Below are positions 1,301 to 39,553 of a stretch of 42,778 bases of DNA, in pieces. The stretch is from the NCBI GenBank assembly GCA_017539165.1, contig JAFYHN010000058.1, positions 1-42,778 of the forward strand. Direction: 5' to 3'. The position numbers were made by a program, and so were the translations under genes. The notes under the pieces are model-generated. The model saw only the letters and a program-made list of their open reading frames with translations. It was not told where the DNA came from and searched no databases. The DNA comes from Eubacterium sp. Lineage in GTDB: Bacteria; Bacillota; Clostridia; Lachnospirales; Lachnospiraceae. Positions within the stretch are counted from its first letter, which is position 1. The number at the start of each line of letters is the position of its first letter.

Positions 1301-1623
1301 ACATTTTTTTGGTTCACATAATAATCAAAATAACTAGGTATTTGTTTCTTATTGCAGAAAAAATAAGCATTCATATAAGGCATTATTCTGAATAGTTCTT
1401 CTCCAACAGAAACAATATCATATCCATTATCAATCTTACTTTCTACTAATTCAATATTAGATTTATCAAATCCTTTATTATGATACAGTTTACCACCATC
1501 ATGATTCACATCTACATCATAGGGTGGGTCAAGAATTGCAAGATTTATAGAATTGTCAGGAATATCTTTAAGAAGTTTCAGACAATCACCATTATAAAGT
1601 TTATTCGTACTCAATCTGAACAC
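1288..1623 (-). CDS. Beta-class DNA methyltransferase, 5' part
   Basis: N-terminal half of a type-II-like DNA methyltransferase. It opens with the NGDCLKLLKDIPDNS pattern usual before motif IV and carries DPPY at residues 32-35, the catalytic motif for amino-methylation of adenine or cytosine. It starts at GTG 1623 behind an AAGAAAG sequence and overlaps the end of the SNF2 helicase gene by 23 bases. The frame ends at a stop 11 codons after the family similarity would normally run on, just past a run of seven A. The remaining motifs (TPPR-like KHPTIKP, motif I) lie in the overlapping frame at 887-1300. Probably a phage anti-restriction or orphan methylase. Confidence 0.75.
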   Translation of the reverse strand: MFRLSTNKLYNGDCLKLLKDIPDNSINLAILDPPYDVDVNHDGGKLYHNKGFDKSNIELVESKIDNGYDIVSVGEELFRIMPYMNAYFFCNKKQIPSYFDYYVNQKNVCLK

Positions 1624-3355
1624 CTTTCTTATTCTTCATCAGTTTTCTCTGCTTTACCCTTGCAATCATTGATTCATTTATATCAACGAATTTTGCATTA
1701 GTATTACCATCCATGACGGCTTTCATATCAGCATAATGTTCACTCAGATTATAATACGGGTCCTCATCAACAGTATCTTTTACAATCAGATAATAAATAA
1801 TACATCTGTCTGCTTTCTGACCGATTCGATGTACCCTATCACTCGCCTGTTCCATTTGTGAGATTGTATTTGCCCATTCAGTAAATATTACGGTATGACT
1901 TGCTGTCAAGGTTATTCCGGTACTTGCTGCCTGTGTCTGACCGATAAACAGCCTTACATGTTCATCATTCTGAAAGGCATCAACCATTCCCTGACGTTTA
2001 TCACTTGGTACGGAACCGTTTATTCCAACAGCCTGTTTACCGAATGTTTTCATAAGGTCTTCATACATTCTGTTATGAAATGTGAATACAACCAGTTTGT
2101 CTTCAACTTCAAGCATATCCTTTATGAACTGAACAACAGCTTCAAGTTTAATATCAACAAGTGCTTCTTTCATTTTGGCAAGATAACTGAACTGATGTAT
2201 TCCTTCTTCCTGTTCAGCAAGTTCCATTTCCATCTGGTCGTAAACCTTGCGGCTGTTTTTATCCATATCGAAATAGATAGGTATCTTCTGTTTTTCAGGA
2301 AGCTGTGAAAGTACATCTTCTTTTCTATGCCTTATCATTATTCCTGAAAGTTTCTCACGCAATTCAGGAATGTTACTTGCACCTTTATATTGCCAACCAA
2401 ATCCATTGTAATATGGGTCACAGTATCTCTGCTTGAAATCCCATTCTTTAGGGAATATGTGAGGTGCTAGTAAATGACAGGCATTATAAAACTGAGCAAC
2501 CCTTGTTTCAAATGGAGTACCTGAAAGGAACAGCTTGAGTACATTATCATTCACAGCAACCTGAGTAACACCTCTGGTTCTTACCGTTTTTGCAGATTCA
2601 ATAGCCTGAACTTCATCACAAATCAGAACCTTCGGTTTTATTACTTCATTAATGTAATCAACCCAGCCTGAGATTGGAATGAAAGCCTTACGGTAAAACC
2701 AGCCGTTTTCCTTGGCTGTCTTTATTCTTTCTTTTTCTCTTTTCTGTGCTTCTTTATCATCTACCCCAAGAATGTCGTAATTTATGATTACAACATCAGC
2801 CTGTTTCACACTATTGAGAATATATCTATCATCATAAGAAGTACGACCATTTATAACATAAGTTTTTACTTCAGGATTCCATTTACTGAATTCTACAGCC
2901 CAGTTAGTCTTTAGGGATGCCGGACATATTACTACAGCAGGATAACACTCTTTTATCTTAGACCTGTACAGCAAATACATAATACTCATCAATGACTTAC
3001 CTGTTCCTTGGTCTGAAGCCAGAAGAATGTTCCCGGTCATATGCAGCATTTGATAAACAGATTCTTTCTGGAAAGGGTACATCTTTTCAGGAAAGTTCAT
3101 GGCTTTCATTTCATCCTGTCTTTTCTGAATTACCCGGTCGATTACTGATTTAAGCTGAATAAATGAATCATCAAATATAGCACCTTCAATCTTGGAGATT
3201 TCAGTAACTGAACTTACAGTACGGTTAAATGCAAAAGCATTCAATGAAGATAGGTATTCTGCATTGAACTTTTCAGCGAGTTCATTAAGTCTGTCTACAT
3301 TAAGTCTGGCGGCATCTACAATGATTCTTGTACCGTCATAAGTTACTCTAGCCAT
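1601..3355 (-). CDS. SNF2/Swi2-type superfamily 2 DNA helicase/translocase
   Basis: 584 residues. Helicase motifs appear in order: a Q-like YPFQKE (94-98), Walker A SDQGTGKS (114-121), DEVQ box (247-250), motif III LSGTPFE (277-283), and motif VI SDRVHRIGQK (505-514). The HRIGQ signature is diagnostic of the SNF2 family (SMARCAL1/Rad54/HARP-like). Such phage enzymes translocate on double-stranded DNA and act in fork reversal, recombination or replication restart; T4 UvsW is a functional analogue. A small N-terminal domain (1-90) precedes the core. The gene begins 7 bases past the stop of the zinc-ribbon gene frame overlap and its end overlaps the methyltransferase start. Confidence 0.9.
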   Translation of the reverse strand: MARVTYDGTRIIVDAARLNVDRLNELAEKFNAEYLSSLNAFAFNRTVSSVTEISKIEGAIFDDSFIQLKSVIDRVIQKRQDEMKAMNFPEKMYPFQKESVYQMLHMTGNILLASDQGTGKSLMSIMYLLYRSKIKECYPAVVICPASLKTNWAVEFSKWNPEVKTYVINGRTSYDDRYILNSVKQADVVIINYDILGVDDKEAQKREKERIKTAKENGWFYRKAFIPISGWVDYINEVIKPKVLICDEVQAIESAKTVRTRGVTQVAVNDNVLKLFLSGTPFETRVAQFYNACHLLAPHIFPKEWDFKQRYCDPYYNGFGWQYKGASNIPELREKLSGIMIRHRKEDVLSQLPEKQKIPIYFDMDKNSRKVYDQMEMELAEQEEGIHQFSYLAKMKEALVDIKLEAVVQFIKDMLEVEDKLVVFTFHNRMYEDLMKTFGKQAVGINGSVPSDKRQGMVDAFQNDEHVRLFIGQTQAASTGITLTASHTVIFTEWANTISQMEQASDRVHRIGQKADRCIIYYLIVKDTVDEDPYYNLSEHYADMKAVMDGNTNAKFVDINESMIARVKQRKLMKNKKGVQIEYE

Positions 3356-3512
3356 TTATTTTAATTTTAGAATTTTCTTTAGCCTTGAGTTTATCAAAAA
3401 CTTCCCTATCAATCAGGGTTCCACTACAATGTGGACATCTTGGGATAATCCAGAGGTCTTTCCGGTTAAAGATAAGAGTAGCTTCACATTTTATACATTT
3501 CAGTTCAGTCAT
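3348..3512 (-). CDS. Small zinc-ribbon protein (54 aa)
   Basis: A short gene with start ATG at 3512 and TAG at 3348-3350, overlapping the ATG of the SNF2 helicase. The 54-residue product has two CxxC knuckles (CIKC at 6-9 and CPHC at 26-29) about 16 residues apart, the layout of a zinc ribbon, followed by a basic tail. Such small phage zinc ribbons often bind nucleic acid or RNA polymerase; the function here is unknown. The start has no Shine-Dalgarno and is abutted by TTAAATATTTTAT, the same sequence found before the gene starting at 31683. Confidence 0.75.
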   Translation of the reverse strand: MTELKCIKCEATLIFNRKDLWIIPRCPHCSGTLIDREVFDKLKAKENSKIKING

Positions 3513-3521
3513 ATAAAATAT

Positions 3522-3617
3522 TTAATTCTTCTTAATGTACTTCTGCATATCAAGAACATTAATCTGTGGAAGTCCGTTATAATGCTTATCCCAGATAAAC
3601 CAACAGGATACAATCAT
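3522..3617 (-). pseudogene. Orphaned original 3' end of the methyltransferase gene
   Basis: A 31-codon open frame (ATG at 3617, TAA at 3522-3524). It parallels the last ~29 codons of the complete methyltransferase upstream: MIVSCWFIWDKHYNGLPQ versus MIVSCFFVWDKDYDGLPQ, both ending in a lysine-rich tail. By hand, about 62 of 81 bases match (3538-3618 against 4381-4461) and similarity stops abruptly at the ATGATTGTA. It lies directly downstream of the GIY-YIG endonuclease gene, whose TGA overlaps its ATG. The simplest reading is that this is the original gene end, displaced when the endonuclease inserted with its own copy. Confidence 0.8.
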
Positions 3618-4366
3618 AGTTGCACAATTTGATAATGGTATCCATTTATCGCAATATTATTTTTTAATACATTTCTAAATTTACATCTTCCAATACCTAA
3701 AACATTACAAGCATGTCTTTCTGAATCAAATGTAACACCTGTTTCTATACACAATATACAGTGACGTTTTTTATTAGCTTTTCTATGTTTAATACAGTAT
3801 TGTTCATAATCTTCTTTTGATAAATTTTTCATCCATTGAGTTTTCTTGCGAAGCAAGTCTGGGTTATCAACCAACAATTTCTTTTGAATATCAGAAAGTC
3901 TTTTTCTCAGTTCAGGACTTGCCACTCTACCTCGATTTGTTTCACTAATCTTCTTACGAGCCTCTTTAGTAAACACTCTATAGTCACTAGGCTTTGGAAT
4001 TATACCATTCTTTATTAAATAATTTACATATCTCCAATTGTCAGAATTTCCTCCGGGTATCAAGTTATACCCATTGTTTGGATTATCTGATTTATAAAAC
4101 CCGATAAACATATCCTCCCAATAATTCAAATCATAAGTTTTTTTGATAAGCATGAAAGAATAATCATCAACTCCATATTTCCTTAAACTTCTATGTAAAT
4201 AAGTATCATCATTTGAACGAATATGTTGTCTAAAACGCTGATATACATTTAACGATTGTCCAATATAAACTTTATGATTTATAAGATTTTCAATCTTATA
4301 AATACCAGCAACTTTATGAGAAGGCTTTATATTGCAATGTAAAATCGACTTATATTTATCTTCCAT
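3614..4366 (-). CDS. GIY-YIG homing endonuclease
   Basis: 250 residues. The N-terminal GIY-YIG nuclease domain shows GIY (21-23), YIG (34-36), the conserved Arg (about 45) and the metal-binding Glu in NYWED (about 84). The middle (about 130-180) is Lys/Arg/Ser-rich with NUMOD3-like repeats (TKEARKKISETNRG, SPELRKRLSD). The C-terminus (about 203-248) resembles a NUMOD1 DNA-binding helix-turn-helix (CIETGVTFDSERHACNVLGI). This is the architecture of free-standing homing endonucleases of phages. It overlaps the end of the methyltransferase by 11 bases and is followed by a second, diverged copy of that gene's 3' end, implying insertion into the methyltransferase gene. Confidence 0.92.
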   Translation of the reverse strand: MEDKYKSILHCNIKPSHKVAGIYKIENLINHKVYIGQSLNVYQRFRQHIRSNDDTYLHRSLRKYGVDDYSFMLIKKTYDLNYWEDMFIGFYKSDNPNNGYNLIPGGNSDNWRYVNYLIKNGIIPKPSDYRVFTKEARKKISETNRGRVASPELRKRLSDIQKKLLVDNPDLLRKKTQWMKNLSKEDYEQYCIKHRKANKKRHCILCIETGVTFDSERHACNVLGIGRCKFRNVLKNNIAINGYHYQIVQL

Positions 4367-4988
4367 CTTTTCTCTTTATGTATTTATCCATATCCAAAAC
4401 TTTAATTTGTGGAAGCCCATCATAATCTTTATCCCATACAAAGAAACAACTTACAATCATACCACATTCAACTTTACCATCTTCAGTTTCAGGTTTATCA
4501 AATGCAATCATTCTGTCAAAAATTAAAACATATTCCAAATGTTCCCACAGTCCGTTTATGTTTCTGTTATGAGCACCAAAAAAGTTTGGTTTACCGATAC
4601 AGAAAACTTTATCAGATTGTATTTTAGCTTTAGTTACAAACTCATCAAATTTCTTAAAAGGTGGATTCATGATGGTAATATCATAATGATTAAGATTCTT
4701 ATAATTTCCATTATCATCTTTTTCAAGATAATCATTTCCATAAATTAAATCTGTTTCAATAAATCTGTTGTATTCTGCAAACCCTTTCTTCCTGAGAACA
4801 TTACCGATGGCATATTTTCCACAACATGGGTCACAAATAACTTTACCCTCAACACTACTATTAAAAATTGAAACCTGAGAATTTATAAGTTCTTCAACCA
4901 TACAACTTGGTGTAGGATAGAAATCTCCTTCAGGTCGTTCAGATTCAGGTTTTCTATTAGCATAGTTCTTACCTTTAGTCTTCATCAT
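4356..4988 (-). CDS. Phage DNA adenine methyltransferase
   Basis: About 210 residues. It has the YPTPS motif near the N-terminus, a SAM-binding motif I (CDPCCG, about 52-57) and the catalytic NPPF (about 108-111), the motif I then IV order of gamma/Dam-like N6-adenine methyltransferases. The ATG at 4988 is preferred to the one at 4994 because GGAG lies 7 bases before it and only 1 base before the upstream ATG. Its start overlaps the DnaB gene end. The 3' end seems to have been supplied by the adjacent homing endonuclease insertion, since the older 3' end survives at 3522-3617. It probably protects phage DNA from restriction. Confidence 0.8.
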   Translation of the reverse strand: MMKTKGKNYANRKPESERPEGDFYPTPSCMVEELINSQVSIFNSSVEGKVICDPCCGKYAIGNVLRKKGFAEYNRFIETDLIYGNDYLEKDDNGNYKNLNHYDITIMNPPFKKFDEFVTKAKIQSDKVFCIGKPNFFGAHNRNINGLWEHLEYVLIFDRMIAFDKPETEDGKVECGMIVSCFFVWDKDYDGLPQIKVLDMDKYIKRKDGR

Positions 4989-6399
4989 CTTCATTCTCCA
5001 TAATCAGATTCTCAGCAAGAATCGGTTCGCCAAATACAAATTGACCAAGACTAAGACATTGCGGGAATACACAGCAATCCACAGCCTCCCCATTACGCAT
5101 TACAACATTCCTTAATCTCATTATATGATTCTTCTTCATCTTTGGTGTCTGTTCCATTGATACCATCGAAGTAACATGAGTTATCTTTCTGTAATCTTCA
5201 GCAATTGCGTTTACATCTACAACAGATGAACTGTAGCCGGTACGGTTTGTCTGAGTTGCTGTAATAACGCAGCAATGGAACTTCATTGCAAATCCACGAA
5301 GATACTGGGTAATGGCATTAAGTTGATTTCTTAATTCAGTTCCACCACCAATTGGCTTGGTAATGTCAGCATAGTCTATGAGAAGAACGTCTGTAACAAA
5401 GTTTTCTTTTGTTGCAAGTTCTTCCACCCTATCGCAAATATCAATTACAGATGCCGTTCCGGCAGGATATGCAATGACCCTGAGATTTGCACTATACTTT
5501 GTAAATGCACGAAGCTGTTTCTGTAACTTCTCAACATCTTCCTCTTTGCTTTCCTTTACATTTACATCATAAAGTTCAATTTTATATTTTCCCTTTTCAT
5601 CAGGACATTCCACAAACTTACAGGTTTCATATGTACCCGGCTTAACAAGTCCTGACTTTACACCAAACCATCTTTTCCACAGACGCTGGATTTCTTCTTC
5701 CCTTGTCATTTCAAGCTCAACAAGAGTAACATTAAGTCTTTGTTCAACAGCCTGAATACCACACTCCTGAAGAAGAAATGACTTTCCTTTCTTGGCACCA
5801 CCCATAATCATAATGAAGTCATTACGGTGTATATTACCGAAAACATTATTTATTTCTCCGGGCATTGTAAAGAGAACTTCTTCCTGTTGTTTAAGGGCAT
5901 TCTTGATAATATCAACAGCTGATTTATCAAGCAGAGAAACCTCATTAGTTTCAGCAATACTGATTCTGTTATAGTTCTGCTGTACCTTACGAGCTTTATT
6001 CATATCTCTGGTGTCAATACAAGCCTGTAAGTTTTCCGTATATTCCTGAAGTGCCTTATAGTCAATGAAGTCTTTACCCCGGTCTATGAGATAATCTTCA
6101 TTGTTTATATTAATTTCAGATTCTGCAATGTTCTTGAGATAGTTATACACAAGGTCCTTGAGTGCCTCATCCTGAATCTCATCACATCTCATTTTATAAA
6201 CAGATGTAATGTCTTTCTTAGGACTGACCTTAAACTTTTCATAGTAGTCCTTAACCCAAGACACAATGACCCTTGAATAATCACAGTCAAAATAATTTGC
6301 TTTAGTGTATGGCAGAAGAATCTGACAGCATTTATTACTCATTATAAGACTTGCCACAAAGTCTTTCTCATTCAGATTCTCAATTACTTCTCGTTTCAT
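4975..6399 (-). CDS. DnaB-like replicative DNA helicase
   Basis: 474 residues with a RecA-type ATPase domain in the C-terminal half: Walker A GGAKKGKS (200-207), an acidic motif after VTLVELEMTREE (about 224-235), Walker B TDVLLIDYAD (336-345) and the DnaB motif III region with ITATQTNRTG (379-388). The N-terminal 180 residues correspond to the primase-interacting domain. It would unwind the fork as a hexamer with the DnaG-type primase encoded at 12179. The C-terminus is acidic (ENEDDED). No Shine-Dalgarno is seen; the ATG abuts the same AT-rich 15-mer found at 878-892. Confidence 0.92.
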   Translation of the reverse strand: MKREVIENLNEKDFVASLIMSNKCCQILLPYTKANYFDCDYSRVIVSWVKDYYEKFKVSPKKDITSVYKMRCDEIQDEALKDLVYNYLKNIAESEININNEDYLIDRGKDFIDYKALQEYTENLQACIDTRDMNKARKVQQNYNRISIAETNEVSLLDKSAVDIIKNALKQQEEVLFTMPGEINNVFGNIHRNDFIMIMGGAKKGKSFLLQECGIQAVEQRLNVTLVELEMTREEEIQRLWKRWFGVKSGLVKPGTYETCKFVECPDEKGKYKIELYDVNVKESKEEDVEKLQKQLRAFTKYSANLRVIAYPAGTASVIDICDRVEELATKENFVTDVLLIDYADITKPIGGGTELRNQLNAITQYLRGFAMKFHCCVITATQTNRTGYSSSVVDVNAIAEDYRKITHVTSMVSMEQTPKMKKNHIMRLRNVVMRNGEAVDCCVFPQCLSLGQFVFGEPILAENLIMENEDDED

Positions 6400-33817: not shown

Positions 33818-36800
33818 TTATGCAGGAATGTAATTGTTATAAATGTACAGGTTGTAAGCACTGTTGAAATAACCATTACCGTCTGCCAAAGCCTCGTATG
33901 TTGGTTTGATATAACCAGCAACCAAATACTGATTAAGCATAAAGTCTGTTGCCTCTGAAGTAACACAGAATGACTTCTGAAGTGCATTGGTGTTGTTTGA
34001 TATACAATTTACAAGGTTTGCATTTGTACCAATCCAATCAATATAGATATTGGCTCCAAAAGAATTACAGTTGTAAACCAACCAAGAACAGTTTGTATTA
34101 AGTCCTTTAATTCTGATGTCTGAATTAAAAATACTTACTTCAAAAGGACCCCAAATACGACAGTTGTTTCCAAAAGTAACCGGACTATTGAAGTTTGTAC
34201 AGTTGTAAAGTATCCAAGTAGTATCAACGTTATCACCTATAACAATAGGCTGATTGAAGTTAGTACATCTGTAGAACATGTTCTGACAGTTTGTAGCATA
34301 TTCAATGTTGATAGGCTGATTGAAGTTCTGACAGTTGTAGAACATATAAGAACAGTTACCTGAAATGTTAGGTGTGCCAATTGGTTGATTGAAATTGCTA
34401 CAGTTGTTAAACATGTAAGAACAATTTGTAAACTTAACACCATCCATTATAACAGGCTGATTATACCAATAATAGTCATCGAACATATGAGCGGCTTCTA
34501 CATTGGTACATTCTGGAGCAAATACAAAAGATGCGTTTCCTCCTGAACTGTAACTGCTTGAATTAAATACCCTATAAGTATTAAGATTTGAACCATTTAG
34601 AGTAAAGTTCGCATTAGAATTAAATCCAATACCATAAAGTACTAAATTATTACCTGAAATATTAACTTCATTAACCTGAGTATTGTAGAACATGCTTACG
34701 AAATTGCCACAATTATTAACATTGATATTTATAGGTTGAGCAAGGTTCACACAATTATTAAACATATAACCAAAACTATCACATTCTAATAAAGTAATAT
34801 CAATAGGTTGATTAAAGTTCTGACAGTTGTAGAACATAAATGAACAATTACTAGCAGAATTGATATTTACAATACTGTTGAGATTACTACAATCTTGGAA
34901 CATACAAACCAAGCTAGGTGAATTACCCTCAATGTTTACAGGACTGTTAAAGTTATAACAACCATAGAAAGCATTATAACAATTTGTAACATTAGCCGGT
35001 ATATTAATTGGCTGATTGAAATTGGTATAACAGAATGCATTACTCATATCCTGTACACCATTACCAATTGTAACAGGCTGATTATAGTCGGTACTTGCAA
35101 ACATATTTGAGATGTTAATTACGCTGTCAGGAATAATTGTAGGCTGGTTATAAGCAGCACTTCCTCTGAACAATCCACTCAAGTTTGTAATTCCCTCATT
35201 GAATGTAATAGGACTGTTGAATCTTTCACATTCCATGAACATACCGTCTACTTTTTCAACTCCATTACCGATTGTTACAGATGAATTAAATGCACTGTCA
35301 TACTCAAACATATAACGAACATCTTTAACACTATCAGGAATTACAACAGGTTGATTGAAGTTAGAACTTGCAAACAGCATTGGAATGTATTTAACTCCAT
35401 TCTCAATCGTTACAGGTGAATTAAATCTAGCACAGTCAGCAAACATATATGCTGAGTAAGCATTTCCTGTACTCCATTCTTCCGAATTGGTATTGTCGTA
35501 TTGGAAAGCGTTTGAAGGAATGGTAATAGGCTGATTAAATCTACTACAACCTGCAAACATTGACCTCATATCACAATCACCCTGATTACTTAATACTACA
35601 GGAGCATTAAAGATACCAGCAGGAAGTGATTCATAATGACCTGACATTTGGAACAGGTTTGAAGTATTGTTTGCGTAATAGAGATTTAACGGCTGACTGA
35701 ATCTTGTTGAGCCTGCAAACATATAAGCACAGTTTCCAAAGAATGTTACATTGCTAAGGTCGCTATTGAACATTAAACAGTTTGCAAACATAAATGAACA
35801 ATCACCATAGTATTCATACCATTGTTCATATCGTTCATCGTATTCTCTGTAATAACCGTTACCATAATTACCACTAAGGTGAACTTCTGTAAGACTAGCA
35901 CAAGAATGGAACATACCTGCTGCTGAAGATACATCGCCGTTGATTGTGATGTTATCTAAGAACTGACAACCGCTGAACAGGTAATCGCCCCACATATTGT
36001 TTGAATTAAGAGTAATATTTCCTTCAAACTCTGCAAGACCACTGAAAGTACCATAAGCAAATTGAATACCCGTAGCATAACAAGTAATATCATTAACATA
36101 AGAGCCATAAGAATCTCCAAAGAGATTATTCATATGGGTTACATTAGTTCCAATTATCAATCTGTTTTCAAAAGCACCTGAGAGCAACCAATCACAATTT
36201 TCAACTGTATTTGGAATTACGAGTTCCTGATTGTATGCTGAGCCATTAAACAGACCTGATATATCTGTTACATTCTGTGGGAATGTAAACGGCTGATTGA
36301 AGTTAGTACCATTCAGTAACCAAGAAATGTTCAAGTTTTCAGGAACATTAACAGGACTGTTAAAGTTCCATGCTCCTTCAAACATATTCTGTACATTTGT
36401 AGCACTGCTAGGAATTGTAATAGGCTGATTAAACACACTAGCCTGTCTGAACATAGAACTAAGATTTTCAACACCTTCCTCAATTACTACAGGAGAATTG
36501 AACATCTGAGAATATTCAAACATACCACTAGCATTTATAACATTCGCAGGAATTGTTACAGGCTTATTGAACACGCTTGTACTCTGATAAAGATTTGAGG
36601 CATCCACAACACTATCAGGTATATTGAAAATCTGATTGTATGCTGAGTATTCAAACAAAGATGAAATATTTGTAAGTGTGCCAAGAATATTAAGATTAGC
36701 ATTGAAATTAGAACTCTGCAACATTCCTGATATATCTTCTACACTCTCAGGAATTGTTAAGTCCTGATTGTATCCTGAACTAGAGAATGTATAAGCCATG

Positions 36801-39553
36801 TTCTTTACATTCTGAGGAATTGTAATAGGCTGATTGAAGTTAGAATAACAGAATGTATAAGCCATGTTCTCTACATTTGCAGGAATTGTAATAGGCTGAT
36901 TGAAGTTAGAACAACTTACAAACATGTTGTCGATATTTACAGCACTATCAGGAATTGTTATAGAAGTATTAAAATTCTGTGATGAAGCAAACATGCCTGA
37001 CAATTCTGTAACTGTTGAAGGAATTGAAACAGAACGATTATAGTTCCAAGTGTTTGCAAACATCCAAGATGTATCTAAAAGACCTTCGTGTAATGTTACA
37101 TCTCCTGTGATACTACTTCTTTGGAATGTACCACTTGCATATTTTACAGTTGAAGGTATTTCAATACCACTTGCAAAATCATAACTAACTTCGGAGAAAG
37201 TATAATTTACAGATTCAAGATTAGGATATTCTGCAAGATTAACATTTGCAACGAAAGACGCATTAGCACCTGAGAAACTGCGGGTAAGTGCTGAGAAAGT
37301 ATTAGGTAAGTTGATAACACCATTTGTATAACTTCTCAAAATTCCACCTGCGTCTCCTGTACAAGCATCAACATTGAATGTAATCTTATCATAAAGATTG
37401 GCTTTAATACCTGCAAACATAAAATCTGTATTTTCAGGATAACCTTCAAATACAACGGTATTGTTGAAGTTTGCACAACTAAACAGCATGTAAGATGAAT
37501 CTTTTACACTTGCCGGTATAGTAAGGTTAGTGTTGAAGTTTCCTACATACATAAACATATTGGCAACATTTTCAACTCCATTAGGAATAGTAATATTACC
37601 CATATAGTTTGAACTTTGGAACATACTTGATAAATCTTTTGCTGTATTAGGAATTATCATATTGTTAGGTGTAAAATTTTTAACTGAAGCAAAAGCATGT
37701 GAAAGATTTTCTGCTCCTGAAGGTATGGCTATATTTGAATAGTAATTCAAATTATAGACACTTGCAAACATATATGACATATCTTTAATCTTTGAATCCT
37801 TAGAAAGATTAACAACGATAGGGCTGTATGACCTTGAAGGACCCAACATATGAGAGGCATTTACAATACTTAAAGGAATATTAATATTACCTGTAAGATT
37901 TGTATAATTAAACATATATGAAGCGTCTATAATTCCATTTCCCAAATATGTATCATGTAATCCCACACCCGATACATTTTCAAAAGCATGTGAAGCATTT
38001 GTAACGCTGTCAGGTATGACAATTCTTGTTAAGTATCCACCATAACTGTTGTATGTGTTTCTATTGGAACACATATAAGATATATCCTTTACTGTGTTAG
38101 GCAATACAAAGCCGAGGGAGAATGAATAATAATCAACCTGACCTGTCCATCTTCCCGGTCCTGCAAATCTTGCATAATCAAACATATGACTTACATTTGT
38201 AACACCTTCAGGTATTACAAAGACCATATTAAAGTATGAACCGCCTGTATTACCTGCATAGAAGTAATTGTGATTATTGCTAAGACCATTGAACATGTTT
38301 GACAAGTCTTTATAACCATTTTCAAATTCAACAATAAGAGGAAATCTGTTATTGAACTGAGGCATTGGCTGATATGACAAATAAGGAGCTTCAGGGAGGA
38401 ATGTTTGGAACGGTATTTGGTTGCCTTCAAGATTCTTTGATATTACAACTTTGTAATAGTTTGCATAAGAATTGATATTAGGCTTGCAGTTAAGACTATC
38501 TACATAATGTACATTTGGTGCAGAAATTACGCAAATACCTGTACTGTTAAATTTGAAGTCTTCTGTATCAATAACAGGTCTTTTATAATTATACAATACA
38601 AATTCCTTTTCTCCGTCATAAGAGTTCCTGTGACCGTCTACCCAAACAGTATTAGGATATGCTTCATTTATAGCGTCCATAAAAGCATTTATGTTTCTAA
38701 CAGCAATGTTAAGGTAAGGATATTCTTGACTACCGTTATTCGTAAATCTGAAGTTAGACAAAGTATTACCCATTAAATAAGTACCTGCAATCTGACTCCA
38801 ACCTTGCGAATTTAATTCAGTAAGATTATCACTTCCCTCGATAACATAATAGCCGCCACAAGGATATGTATTAAAGATTTTAGTATTCTCTGATAATTTC
38901 ATATAAGGTTCATGAACATTTGAATACGAAATGTTTCTTGCATTTACAAGGCTTTTAGGAAGTTTGTAAAAAGGAAGAGGAACATTTTCAAATACATTAT
39001 ACATATCTTCAATTCCTTCAGGTAAACTAGAAGGAAAAGAGCCGGTACCATAACCATAGTAGGCATAGAATGTATTATCCATTGTCTTTAATGTTGAAGG
39101 AAGAGTAACAGGCTGTTTAAGACCATTACAACCATAGAAAGTGTTATTCATTGATACAACACCTGTTGGAATTGTAATAGGCTGATTAAAATAGCTACAA
39201 CCATTAAATGTGTTATCCATTGCTGTGATATTTGAAGGTGAATCAAAATATACAGGAGCATTGAATGTCTGACAATTAAAGAATGTATTATTTACAGATG
39301 TAACTGTAGCACCAAAAGTGATAGAAGGATAACTTGTAACCTGATTTGTGTTATTGGCAAACAGGTTATCAGCATTTGTTTCATCACTTATATCTGCAAC
39401 CGTCATTGTGTAAACAGGAGTATCGGACTTCAACGGTTTCGGAATAGAGTTGATATAACCACTCATCTGTCCGGGTTTCATTGTATCTTCAATTTCAAGT
39501 TTACCACGAATTGAGGTTGCTATGTCTGAAAATACTGAAGTAAGTTCACTCAT
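33818..39553 (-). CDS. Giant BspA-type leucine-rich-repeat tail fibre (1911 aa)
   Basis: 1911 residues. The first 40 residues (SVFSDIATSIRGKLE, then KPGQMSGYINSI) match the N-terminal module of many phage tail fibres that docks to the tail. Nearly all the rest consists of tandem units of about 22-25 residues of the form NMxxMFxxCxNFNQPITIPxxV, the BspA/DUF285 leucine-rich-repeat type used by bacterial surface adhesins. Some adjacent units are nearly identical at the DNA level. It probably reads a host surface protein or polysaccharide. Good ribosome site AAGGAG before ATG 39553. Followed by a terminator, a glycosyltransferase and a small gene. Confidence 0.85.
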   Translation of the reverse strand: MSELTSVFSDIATSIRGKLEIEDTMKPGQMSGYINSIPKPLKSDTPVYTMTVADISDETNADNLFANNTNQVTSYPSITFGATVTSVNNTFFNCQTFNAPVYFDSPSNITAMDNTFNGCSYFNQPITIPTGVVSMNNTFYGCNGLKQPVTLPSTLKTMDNTFYAYYGYGTGSFPSSLPEGIEDMYNVFENVPLPFYKLPKSLVNARNISYSNVHEPYMKLSENTKIFNTYPCGGYYVIEGSDNLTELNSQGWSQIAGTYLMGNTLSNFRFTNNGSQEYPYLNIAVRNINAFMDAINEAYPNTVWVDGHRNSYDGEKEFVLYNYKRPVIDTEDFKFNSTGICVISAPNVHYVDSLNCKPNINSYANYYKVVISKNLEGNQIPFQTFLPEAPYLSYQPMPQFNNRFPLIVEFENGYKDLSNMFNGLSNNHNYFYAGNTGGSYFNMVFVIPEGVTNVSHMFDYARFAGPGRWTGQVDYYSFSLGFVLPNTVKDISYMCSNRNTYNSYGGYLTRIVIPDSVTNASHAFENVSGVGLHDTYLGNGIIDASYMFNYTNLTGNINIPLSIVNASHMLGPSRSYSPIVVNLSKDSKIKDMSYMFASVYNLNYYSNIAIPSGAENLSHAFASVKNFTPNNMIIPNTAKDLSSMFQSSNYMGNITIPNGVENVANMFMYVGNFNTNLTIPASVKDSSYMLFSCANFNNTVVFEGYPENTDFMFAGIKANLYDKITFNVDACTGDAGGILRSYTNGVINLPNTFSALTRSFSGANASFVANVNLAEYPNLESVNYTFSEVSYDFASGIEIPSTVKYASGTFQRSSITGDVTLHEGLLDTSWMFANTWNYNRSVSIPSTVTELSGMFASSQNFNTSITIPDSAVNIDNMFVSCSNFNQPITIPANVENMAYTFCYSNFNQPITIPQNVKNMAYTFSSSGYNQDLTIPESVEDISGMLQSSNFNANLNILGTLTNISSLFEYSAYNQIFNIPDSVVDASNLYQSTSVFNKPVTIPANVINASGMFEYSQMFNSPVVIEEGVENLSSMFRQASVFNQPITIPSSATNVQNMFEGAWNFNSPVNVPENLNISWLLNGTNFNQPFTFPQNVTDISGLFNGSAYNQELVIPNTVENCDWLLSGAFENRLIIGTNVTHMNNLFGDSYGSYVNDITCYATGIQFAYGTFSGLAEFEGNITLNSNNMWGDYLFSGCQFLDNITINGDVSSAAGMFHSCASLTEVHLSGNYGNGYYREYDERYEQWYEYYGDCSFMFANCLMFNSDLSNVTFFGNCAYMFAGSTRFSQPLNLYYANNTSNLFQMSGHYESLPAGIFNAPVVLSNQGDCDMRSMFAGCSRFNQPITIPSNAFQYDNTNSEEWSTGNAYSAYMFADCARFNSPVTIENGVKYIPMLFASSNFNQPVVIPDSVKDVRYMFEYDSAFNSSVTIGNGVEKVDGMFMECERFNSPITFNEGITNLSGLFRGSAAYNQPTIIPDSVINISNMFASTDYNQPVTIGNGVQDMSNAFCYTNFNQPINIPANVTNCYNAFYGCYNFNSPVNIEGNSPSLVCMFQDCSNLNSIVNINSASNCSFMFYNCQNFNQPIDITLLECDSFGYMFNNCVNLAQPININVNNCGNFVSMFYNTQVNEVNISGNNLVLYGIGFNSNANFTLNGSNLNTYRVFNSSSYSSGGNASFVFAPECTNVEAAHMFDDYYWYNQPVIMDGVKFTNCSYMFNNCSNFNQPIGTPNISGNCSYMFYNCQNFNQPINIEYATNCQNMFYRCTNFNQPIVIGDNVDTTWILYNCTNFNSPVTFGNNCRIWGPFEVSIFNSDIRIKGLNTNCSWLVYNCNSFGANIYIDWIGTNANLVNCISNNTNALQKSFCVTSEATDFMLNQYLVAGYIKPTYEALADGNGYFNSAYNLYIYNNYIPA
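36784..36911 (-). repeat. 66-bp direct repeat inside the LRR gene
   Basis: Two adjacent copies (from 36784 and 36850), about 62 bases each, almost identical; period 66 = 22 codons, one LRR unit. Confidence 0.85.

Follow-up and report, generated by a model that had tools for sequence, protein, structure and literature searches.

Hybrid genes formed by mobile open reading frames in mitochondria were reportedly described by Paquin et al. 1994. In fungal mitochondria there are four cases in Glomus sp. (atp6, atp9, cox2 and nad3) and one, atp6, in Allomyces macrogynus. The gene has acquired a foreign 3' end, behind which follow an endonuclease reading frame and then the native end of the gene, 52 to 279 bases long (PMC3630166). 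The endonuclease of the atp9 case is of the GIY-YIG type and those of three of the four Glomus cases are LAGLIDADG, and the native ends in Glomus match related species at 91-98% of nucleotides, against 64-81% for the inserted ends (same source).

In phages, the homing endonucleases of T4 make a double-strand break that is repaired from the donor, and flanking sequence is co-converted (PMC2988022). The free-standing Seg family of T4-like phages homes without introns: as far as the same source goes, these are GIY-YIG enzymes encoded without intron or intein beside their presumed targets, and a second copy of a target end is undescribed (PMC2988022). Phage endonucleases at exchange boundaries have also been treated, a carried gene end being unmentioned in the accessible part of that work (PMC10448857). 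No phage case of a fused end, an endonuclease and an orphaned end was found in the literature searched, outside which most subscription papers lie. Friedrich et al. 2007 are said to have described a ribonucleotide reductase gene of a T4-like phage in which an endonuclease gene lies in the coding sequence and the product is still functional; that gene is left in pieces, unlike the one considered here, which appears to be made whole by a carried end.

The locus studied here lies in a stretch of 42,778 nucleotides (the window, meaning the whole stretch analysed), and its genes follow one another on the minus strand in the order DnaB-like helicase, adenine methyltransferase, GIY-YIG endonuclease, a frame of 31 codons, zinc-ribbon protein, and SNF2-type helicase (Table 1). 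The order typical of mobile-ORF hybrids (fused-end gene, endonuclease, second 3' end) is found in the window, in the phage locus L192 (with L200), and in L202, and the anatomy is present in short form in L137. In the position of the endonuclease, in the comparable size of the stranded end and, for atp9, in the endonuclease family, the window resembles the mitochondrial hybrids (PMC3630166); unlike them, the window, L192 and L202 belong to dsDNA phages and have a methyltransferase or an SbcCD-like gene as target. Phage genes surround the window element and its sisters are in viral contigs rather than mitochondria, so that it works like the mitochondrial hybrids without being classed among them. 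It is like the Seg enzymes in being a GIY-YIG endonuclease beside its presumed target with neither intron nor intein, and unlike them in leaving a hybrid gene and an orphaned end. An earlier, sequence-only reading of the window had called the carriage of a replacement coding end unusual: it is so for phages, but it is known from fungal mitochondria (PMC3630166). A phage variant of the mechanism described there would be new.

Table 1. Features of the methyltransferase locus in the window, listed in the direction of transcription
Feature	Positions	Strand	Support
DnaB-like helicase, upstream flank	4975-6399	-	PF03796; 83% to L024, 81% to L025
Adenine methyltransferase gene, intact	4356-4994	-	phrog_799 E 1.4e-27; NPPF motif in the translation; relatives
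Methyltransferase 5' half, closest to L012/L013	4698-4994	-	codon log2 ratio +0.7 (ambiguous codon usage); sliding identities
Methyltransferase body 3' half, probably co-converted with the endonuclease	4461-4697	-	codon log2 ratio -4.6; nearest relative changes along the gene
Fused methyltransferase 3' end, putatively arrived with the endonuclease	4356-4460	-	codon log2 ratio -5.5, beyond the 5-95% range of core genes
GIY-YIG homing endonuclease gene, free-standing, 250 aa	3614-4366	-	Pfam PF01541 E 4.3e-7; phrog_314 E 2.4e-25
Orphan methyltransferase 3' end, 31 open codons, putative old resident	3522-3617	-	62/81 bases identical to the fused end; codon log2 ratio +7.6
Small zinc-ribbon protein, downstream flank	3348-3512	-	PF13453 E 2e-6; relatives before SNF2 in L018, L025
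SNF2-type helicase, downstream flank	1601-3355	-	PF00176; 84% to L024, 83% to L019, 78% to L025

All of these elements were found where the sequence-only reading had placed them. The PF01541 match of the endonuclease exceeds the curated cut-off, and when aligned with two phage relatives the window protein shows the GIY and YIG motifs, together with an invariant arginine. The stop of the methyltransferase overlaps the start of the endonuclease (4356-4366), and the TGA stop of the endonuclease (3614-3616) overlaps the ATG of the orphan frame (3615-3617). No intron family of Rfam matched the window between 3300 and 5100 (a single chance snoRNA match had an E value of 0.3), and none matched L192, L202 or L137; having its own start and stop codons and no Rfam intron match, the window endonuclease is free-standing and intronless.

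The orphan and the fused end are identical at 62 of 81 bases, exactly as first counted, or at 64 of 84 over 28 codons (22 of 28 residues). The match begins at the stop codon of the endonuclease. Ahead of the junction just 17 of 60 bases agree; the boundary of the duplicated end is therefore sharp, which had also been claimed. The best local alignment of the two ends has a score of 79; since 200 composition shuffles reached no more than 30, chance likeness was rejected. Over the 28 codons dN is 0.18 and dS 1.5, such that the ends diverged mostly as working alleles; a recent tandem duplication of the methyltransferase end, which the sequence-only reading had likewise denied, was accordingly rejected.

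We think it quite probable that the GIY-YIG enzyme is a phage homing endonuclease whose spread substitutes a new 3' end for that of the gene it targets; the window endonuclease likely brought the methyltransferase's new 3' end, stranding the old one. The enzyme would cut a methyltransferase gene that lacks the endonuclease, at the point where the orphan begins, about 30 codons short of the gene's stop. Repair would copy in the donor's cassette (a 3' gene end with some preceding coding sequence, then the endonuclease gene), and the recipient would be rejoined at the cut. Its gene would remain complete, now ending in donor sequence, while the former end would be stranded behind the endonuclease stop. 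Being different in sequence, the carried end would shield the new genome from cutting. Since the endonuclease start and the methyltransferase stop overlap, it may also serve translation of the endonuclease. The presence and absence of the endonuclease among relatives is consistent with its predicted site-specific cutting of the endonuclease-free allele and the spread that would follow.

Relatives of the methyltransferase comprised 15 loci in viral contigs (including three from an earlier scan) and L009, from a Lachnospiraceae metagenome-assembled genome; two weak Helicobacter matches (L010 and L011) were left out. The 3' end is complete in 15 of them (L001, L002, L003, L009, L012-L020, L022 and L023) and cut off in L021; these 15 are partly non-independent, as L015 equals L016 where shown, L022 likewise equals L023, and L014 is 98% identical to L015. 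All 15 have a single methyltransferase end, and in none did tblastn place a gene like the window endonuclease directly behind the methyltransferase; L015 and L016 have such a gene about 1.4 kb further behind. A Pfam comparison of the first frame behind the methyltransferase, covering 9 of the 15, gave no endonuclease family. Two ends with no endonuclease between them, the arrangement that the sequence-only reading had named as contradicting it, thus occur in 0 of 15.

Because the bodies of these 15 genes are too distant from that of the window (at most 76% identical), they do not themselves show which end is native, and the nearest sisters by DnaB, L024 (DnaB 83%, SNF2 84%) and L025 (DnaB 81%, SNF2 78%), have lost the methyltransferase. 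L024 retains a scar of about 16 first codons ahead of SNF2 (L024:7409-7470), while in L025 the first methyltransferase codons (GKNYANRKPES) run into the frame of an HNH endonuclease (L025:7406-8251; phrog_374, E 4.4e-62) and the remainder of the gene is missing. SNF2 lies behind the methyltransferase in L013, L018 and L019, directly in L019 and after small frames in the other two, and DnaB lies ahead of it in L013 and L018; the sequence of L019 starts inside the methyltransferase gene. L018 has a SegE-like GIY-YIG gene between DnaB and an intact methyltransferase (L018:4078-5010), the DnaB gene of L013 contains an intein-like insertion (L013:625-1700; Hom_end_hint, Hom_end), and the SNF2 gene of L019 an insertion that looks like an intein by eye (L019:990-1750). 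With L025, these insertions make the locus a repeated target of selfish endonucleases, and all are of other kinds than that of the window.

Searches of cellular genomes gave no close sister of the methyltransferase among 195 related prokaryote genomes (only the window's own genome and two others at 28-29% identity), and only the window's own genome among 398 of the phylum at an E value of 1e-20. The window's own was likewise the only SNF2 match in the 195 genomes and the only DnaB match in 397 genomes of the family. Used alone as a query, the DnaB protein matched nothing in the viral contigs, and the window endonuclease alone returned no relatives.

Codon usage separates the two ends. We scored it as a log2 ratio of phage core against endonuclease usage: the orphan scores +7.6 and the fused end -5.5, while residues 100-178 of the methyltransferase score -4.6 and residues 1-99 +0.7, compared with a median of +6.1 (5-95% range -2.0 to +12.0) for 85 windows of core genes. 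The test is noisy, with eight endonuclease windows ranging from -9.0 to +8.2 (one window at +8.2). By this measure the fused end and the 3' half of the methyltransferase group with the endonuclease, and the orphan goes with the phage's own genes. The GC3 of the window orphan was set aside in favour of the codon likelihood: in several relatives, too, the gene end is richer in GC3 than the body.

When the ends were compared with 13 methyltransferase relatives (L016, L021 and L023 were not used), 9 of 13 were closer to the orphan than to the fused end in DNA, and 10 of 13 in protein. The fused end was nearer in DNA to L001, L003, L009 and L019 and in protein to L001, L003 and L022, and it has the stretch MIVSCFFVWD in common with L001. 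Tree placement of the short ends gave no AU value below 0.05 among the 12 best placements of each run.

The body of the methyltransferase also disagrees with its flanks. Between the window and L019 the SNF2 genes are 83% identical and the methyltransferase bodies 65%, while between L017 and L019 the methyltransferases are 79% identical and the SNF2 genes 57%, and the trees of methyltransferase body and flanks conflict; much of the window methyltransferase is therefore foreign to its neighbourhood, and its foreign look, judged against the flanks, extends past the tail to most of the gene. The nearest relatives along the gene are L012 and L013 for about the first 90-120 residues, then a mixture led by L001 and L017. 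Breakpoint tests give a weak hint of the same change: of 22 run, 10 had p below 0.05, the best at 0.0036, uncorrected. Taken together, codon usage, the comparisons of ends and the disagreement of body and flanks favour an old orphan and a new fused end and endonuclease, the methyltransferase body having come in with them in part or as a whole. The proposal that the endonuclease came with its own 3' end and orphaned the old one thus gains from the window itself, from codon usage and from 9 of the 13 relatives in DNA, although the relatives are too distant and the nearest sisters lack the gene. The extent of the imported piece had been given as the gene end, which we amend: the 3' half of the methyltransferase was probably imported too, with an uncertain upstream edge at about residues 87-123, and perhaps the whole gene.

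The same disagreement is what would be expected had an ordinary free-standing endonuclease arrived with an entire donor methyltransferase by long co-conversion, with illegitimate joining at the cut to close the downstream side. The orphan would then be a leftover of the old gene, and the carried end a by-product and no property of the element. The 65% identity to L019 next to 83% in SNF2, the reversed figures for L017 and L019, and the conflict between body and flank trees all fit such a course. On the other side, the step in codon usage from the 5' half to the 3' half suits an edge inside the gene (the breakpoint tests being weak), and in the second family, described below, a whole foreign gene is unneeded. 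We regard replacement of the whole gene as unlikely, if still a serious contender.

A second family with the same arrangement came from a survey of loci with window-like endonucleases, in which the best 80 of at least 370 relatives (among at least 600 matched stretches) were scanned for repeated gene ends. In L192 an intact SbcCD-like gene (PF02463) is followed by a GIY-YIG gene and then, from the endonuclease stop onward, by 60 codons of the same gene end (53 of 62 residues identical). Relatives of this SbcCD-like gene were found at 54 loci: L200 is the same contig as L192, L217 is another contig (100% over the query), and L202 carries a similar cassette, with Metallophos and SMC domains in the target gene and an endonuclease that shares 66% identity with the one in L192. 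In six sisters (L201 and L203-L207) a single end is followed by the usual next gene, with no endonuclease between; the orphans of L192 and L202 lead directly into the next gene in the same way.

This family allowed the comparison that the sequence-only reading had suggested, namely whether endonuclease-free relatives carry the orphan-type end. Over 180 bases, the orphan and the fused end of L202 agree respectively at 173 and 144 positions with L201, 159 and 143 with L203, 143 and 153 with L204, 164 and 144 with L205, 151 and 155 with L206, and 162 and 143 with L207. Four of the six endonuclease-free sisters (L201, L203, L205 and L207) thus have an end of the type of the L202 orphan, which occupies the usual position ahead of the next gene; L204 and L206 are nearer the fused end. 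For L192, five of the six (L201, L203, L204, L205 and L207) are nearer the orphan, and L206 is nearer the fused end (150 against 145). The expectation is borne out by most sisters, then, with L204 and L206 as the exceptions; a sister species decides the native end in Glomus (PMC3630166), whereas those of L202 agree in four of six only. A tree of ends joins L204 to the fused end of L202 with 95% bootstrap support, and L201 to the L202 orphan with 88%. The body of the L202 gene is 88% identical to L201 (502/570) and 87% to L204 (497/570), and the downstream genes are likewise about equally close, so that the body alone cannot decide which end is resident, and a whole foreign gene is unneeded there. 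Although both lack the endonuclease, L201 and L204 have different end types in shared surroundings.

Base composition and codon usage were compared here also. GC3 is 0.15 and 0.18 in the fused ends of L192 and L202 and 0.30 and 0.25 in their orphans; the end of L206 (0.15) is poor like the fused ends. Codon scores, taken against gene body and endonuclease, are -5.4 and -4.3 for the fused ends and +2.9 and +5.9 for the orphans. In our reading the orphan-type ends would be the usual ones and the end of L204 an exchanged one, either as a donor lineage or after loss of an endonuclease; that the fused type is ancestral in this family seems less likely. The end of L204 in question lies near position 3457 of that locus. 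The window, we infer, followed the same course as L202, and end replacement as a kind of event is well supported by these comparisons, if short of unanimously.

Were the fused end native and the orphan foreign DNA trailing the endonuclease, the MIVSCFFVWD stretch in common with L001, the closeness of the fused end to L001, L003, L009 and L019 in DNA, and that of L204 and L206 to the fused end of L202 would find an explanation. Codon usage points the opposite way, however, most relatives are nearer the orphan (in the window family, and in four and five of six sisters for L202 and L192), and the orphans of L192 and L202 sit against the next gene just as single ends do; we consider this reversal quite improbable. 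A drifted tandem duplication of the gene end, between whose copies the endonuclease inserted later, would account for their direct order, but it is very improbable indeed, given a dS of 1.5 and dN of 0.18 that bespeak long divergence under selection as working ends, two ends in 0 of 15 relatives, and no such pair listed there by the duplication scan.

Between the stop of the fused gene and the endonuclease, L192 (2948-2990) and L202 (just after 3642) contain two short degenerate repeats that are similar to the beginning of the orphan, one of which agrees with it in L192 at 18 of 20 bases; just ahead of the endonuclease start in L202 there is also, by eye, an inverted repeat (CCCACCTATT/AATAGGTGGG). 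These are possibly traces of earlier insertions or a control element.

The third, short case is L137, in which a structural-looking gene has its final 27 bases repeated, with 22 of 27 positions identical (14 in a row), beginning 2 bases past the endonuclease stop; the best other match in the locus reaches 16, and none of 20000 random 40-mers reaches 22. It was kept as positive, together with L192, by a targeted scan in which 69 of the 80 endonuclease loci (the best 80 of at least 370 relatives) were testable, a scan that misses shorter or more decayed stubs. Among its candidates, L123, L134 and L191 were dropped as not scoring above their own shuffles, and L173 was dropped because, although above them (47 against 40), its repeat starts 131 bases past the endonuclease stop. 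A first duplication scan of 199 loci, less four copies of the window DNA, had given 52 rows, all of which except L192 were dropped by eye as simple repeats, antisense frames, tandem paralogues or an endonuclease paralogue (L181). The scan of L200-L253 gave L200, L217 and L202, and rows for L209, L218, L220, L223, L232 and L235 that were dropped by eye.

More tentatively, as a possibility that falls somewhat short of even chances, these loci may represent a recurrent class of phage homing cassettes composed of a replacement 3' gene end and a GIY-YIG endonuclease. The carried end would keep the target working, make the allele resistant to cutting and supply translation signals for the endonuclease, and ends would be swapped between lineages and persist (as perhaps in L204) without the endonuclease. 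If true, free-standing phage endonucleases need neither an intron nor an intein to enter a coding sequence and leave it unbroken, and hybrid genes with ends from another lineage are predicted. Wherever an endonuclease separates a phage gene from a stub that repeats the gene's end, the arrangement may then preserve the trace of a homing event, each stub indicating a candidate target for cleavage.

Two further observations concern the remainder of the window. A second methyltransferase-like gene is present as two overlapping frames on the minus strand (887-1300 and 1288-1623), between the SNF2 gene and an SbcC-like gene, where L024 carries a single frame of 266 aa. Also on the minus strand, at 33818-39553, is a phage protein of 1911 residues made of short degenerate repeats of the type NxFNQPITIP, which we take to be BspA/DUF285-like.
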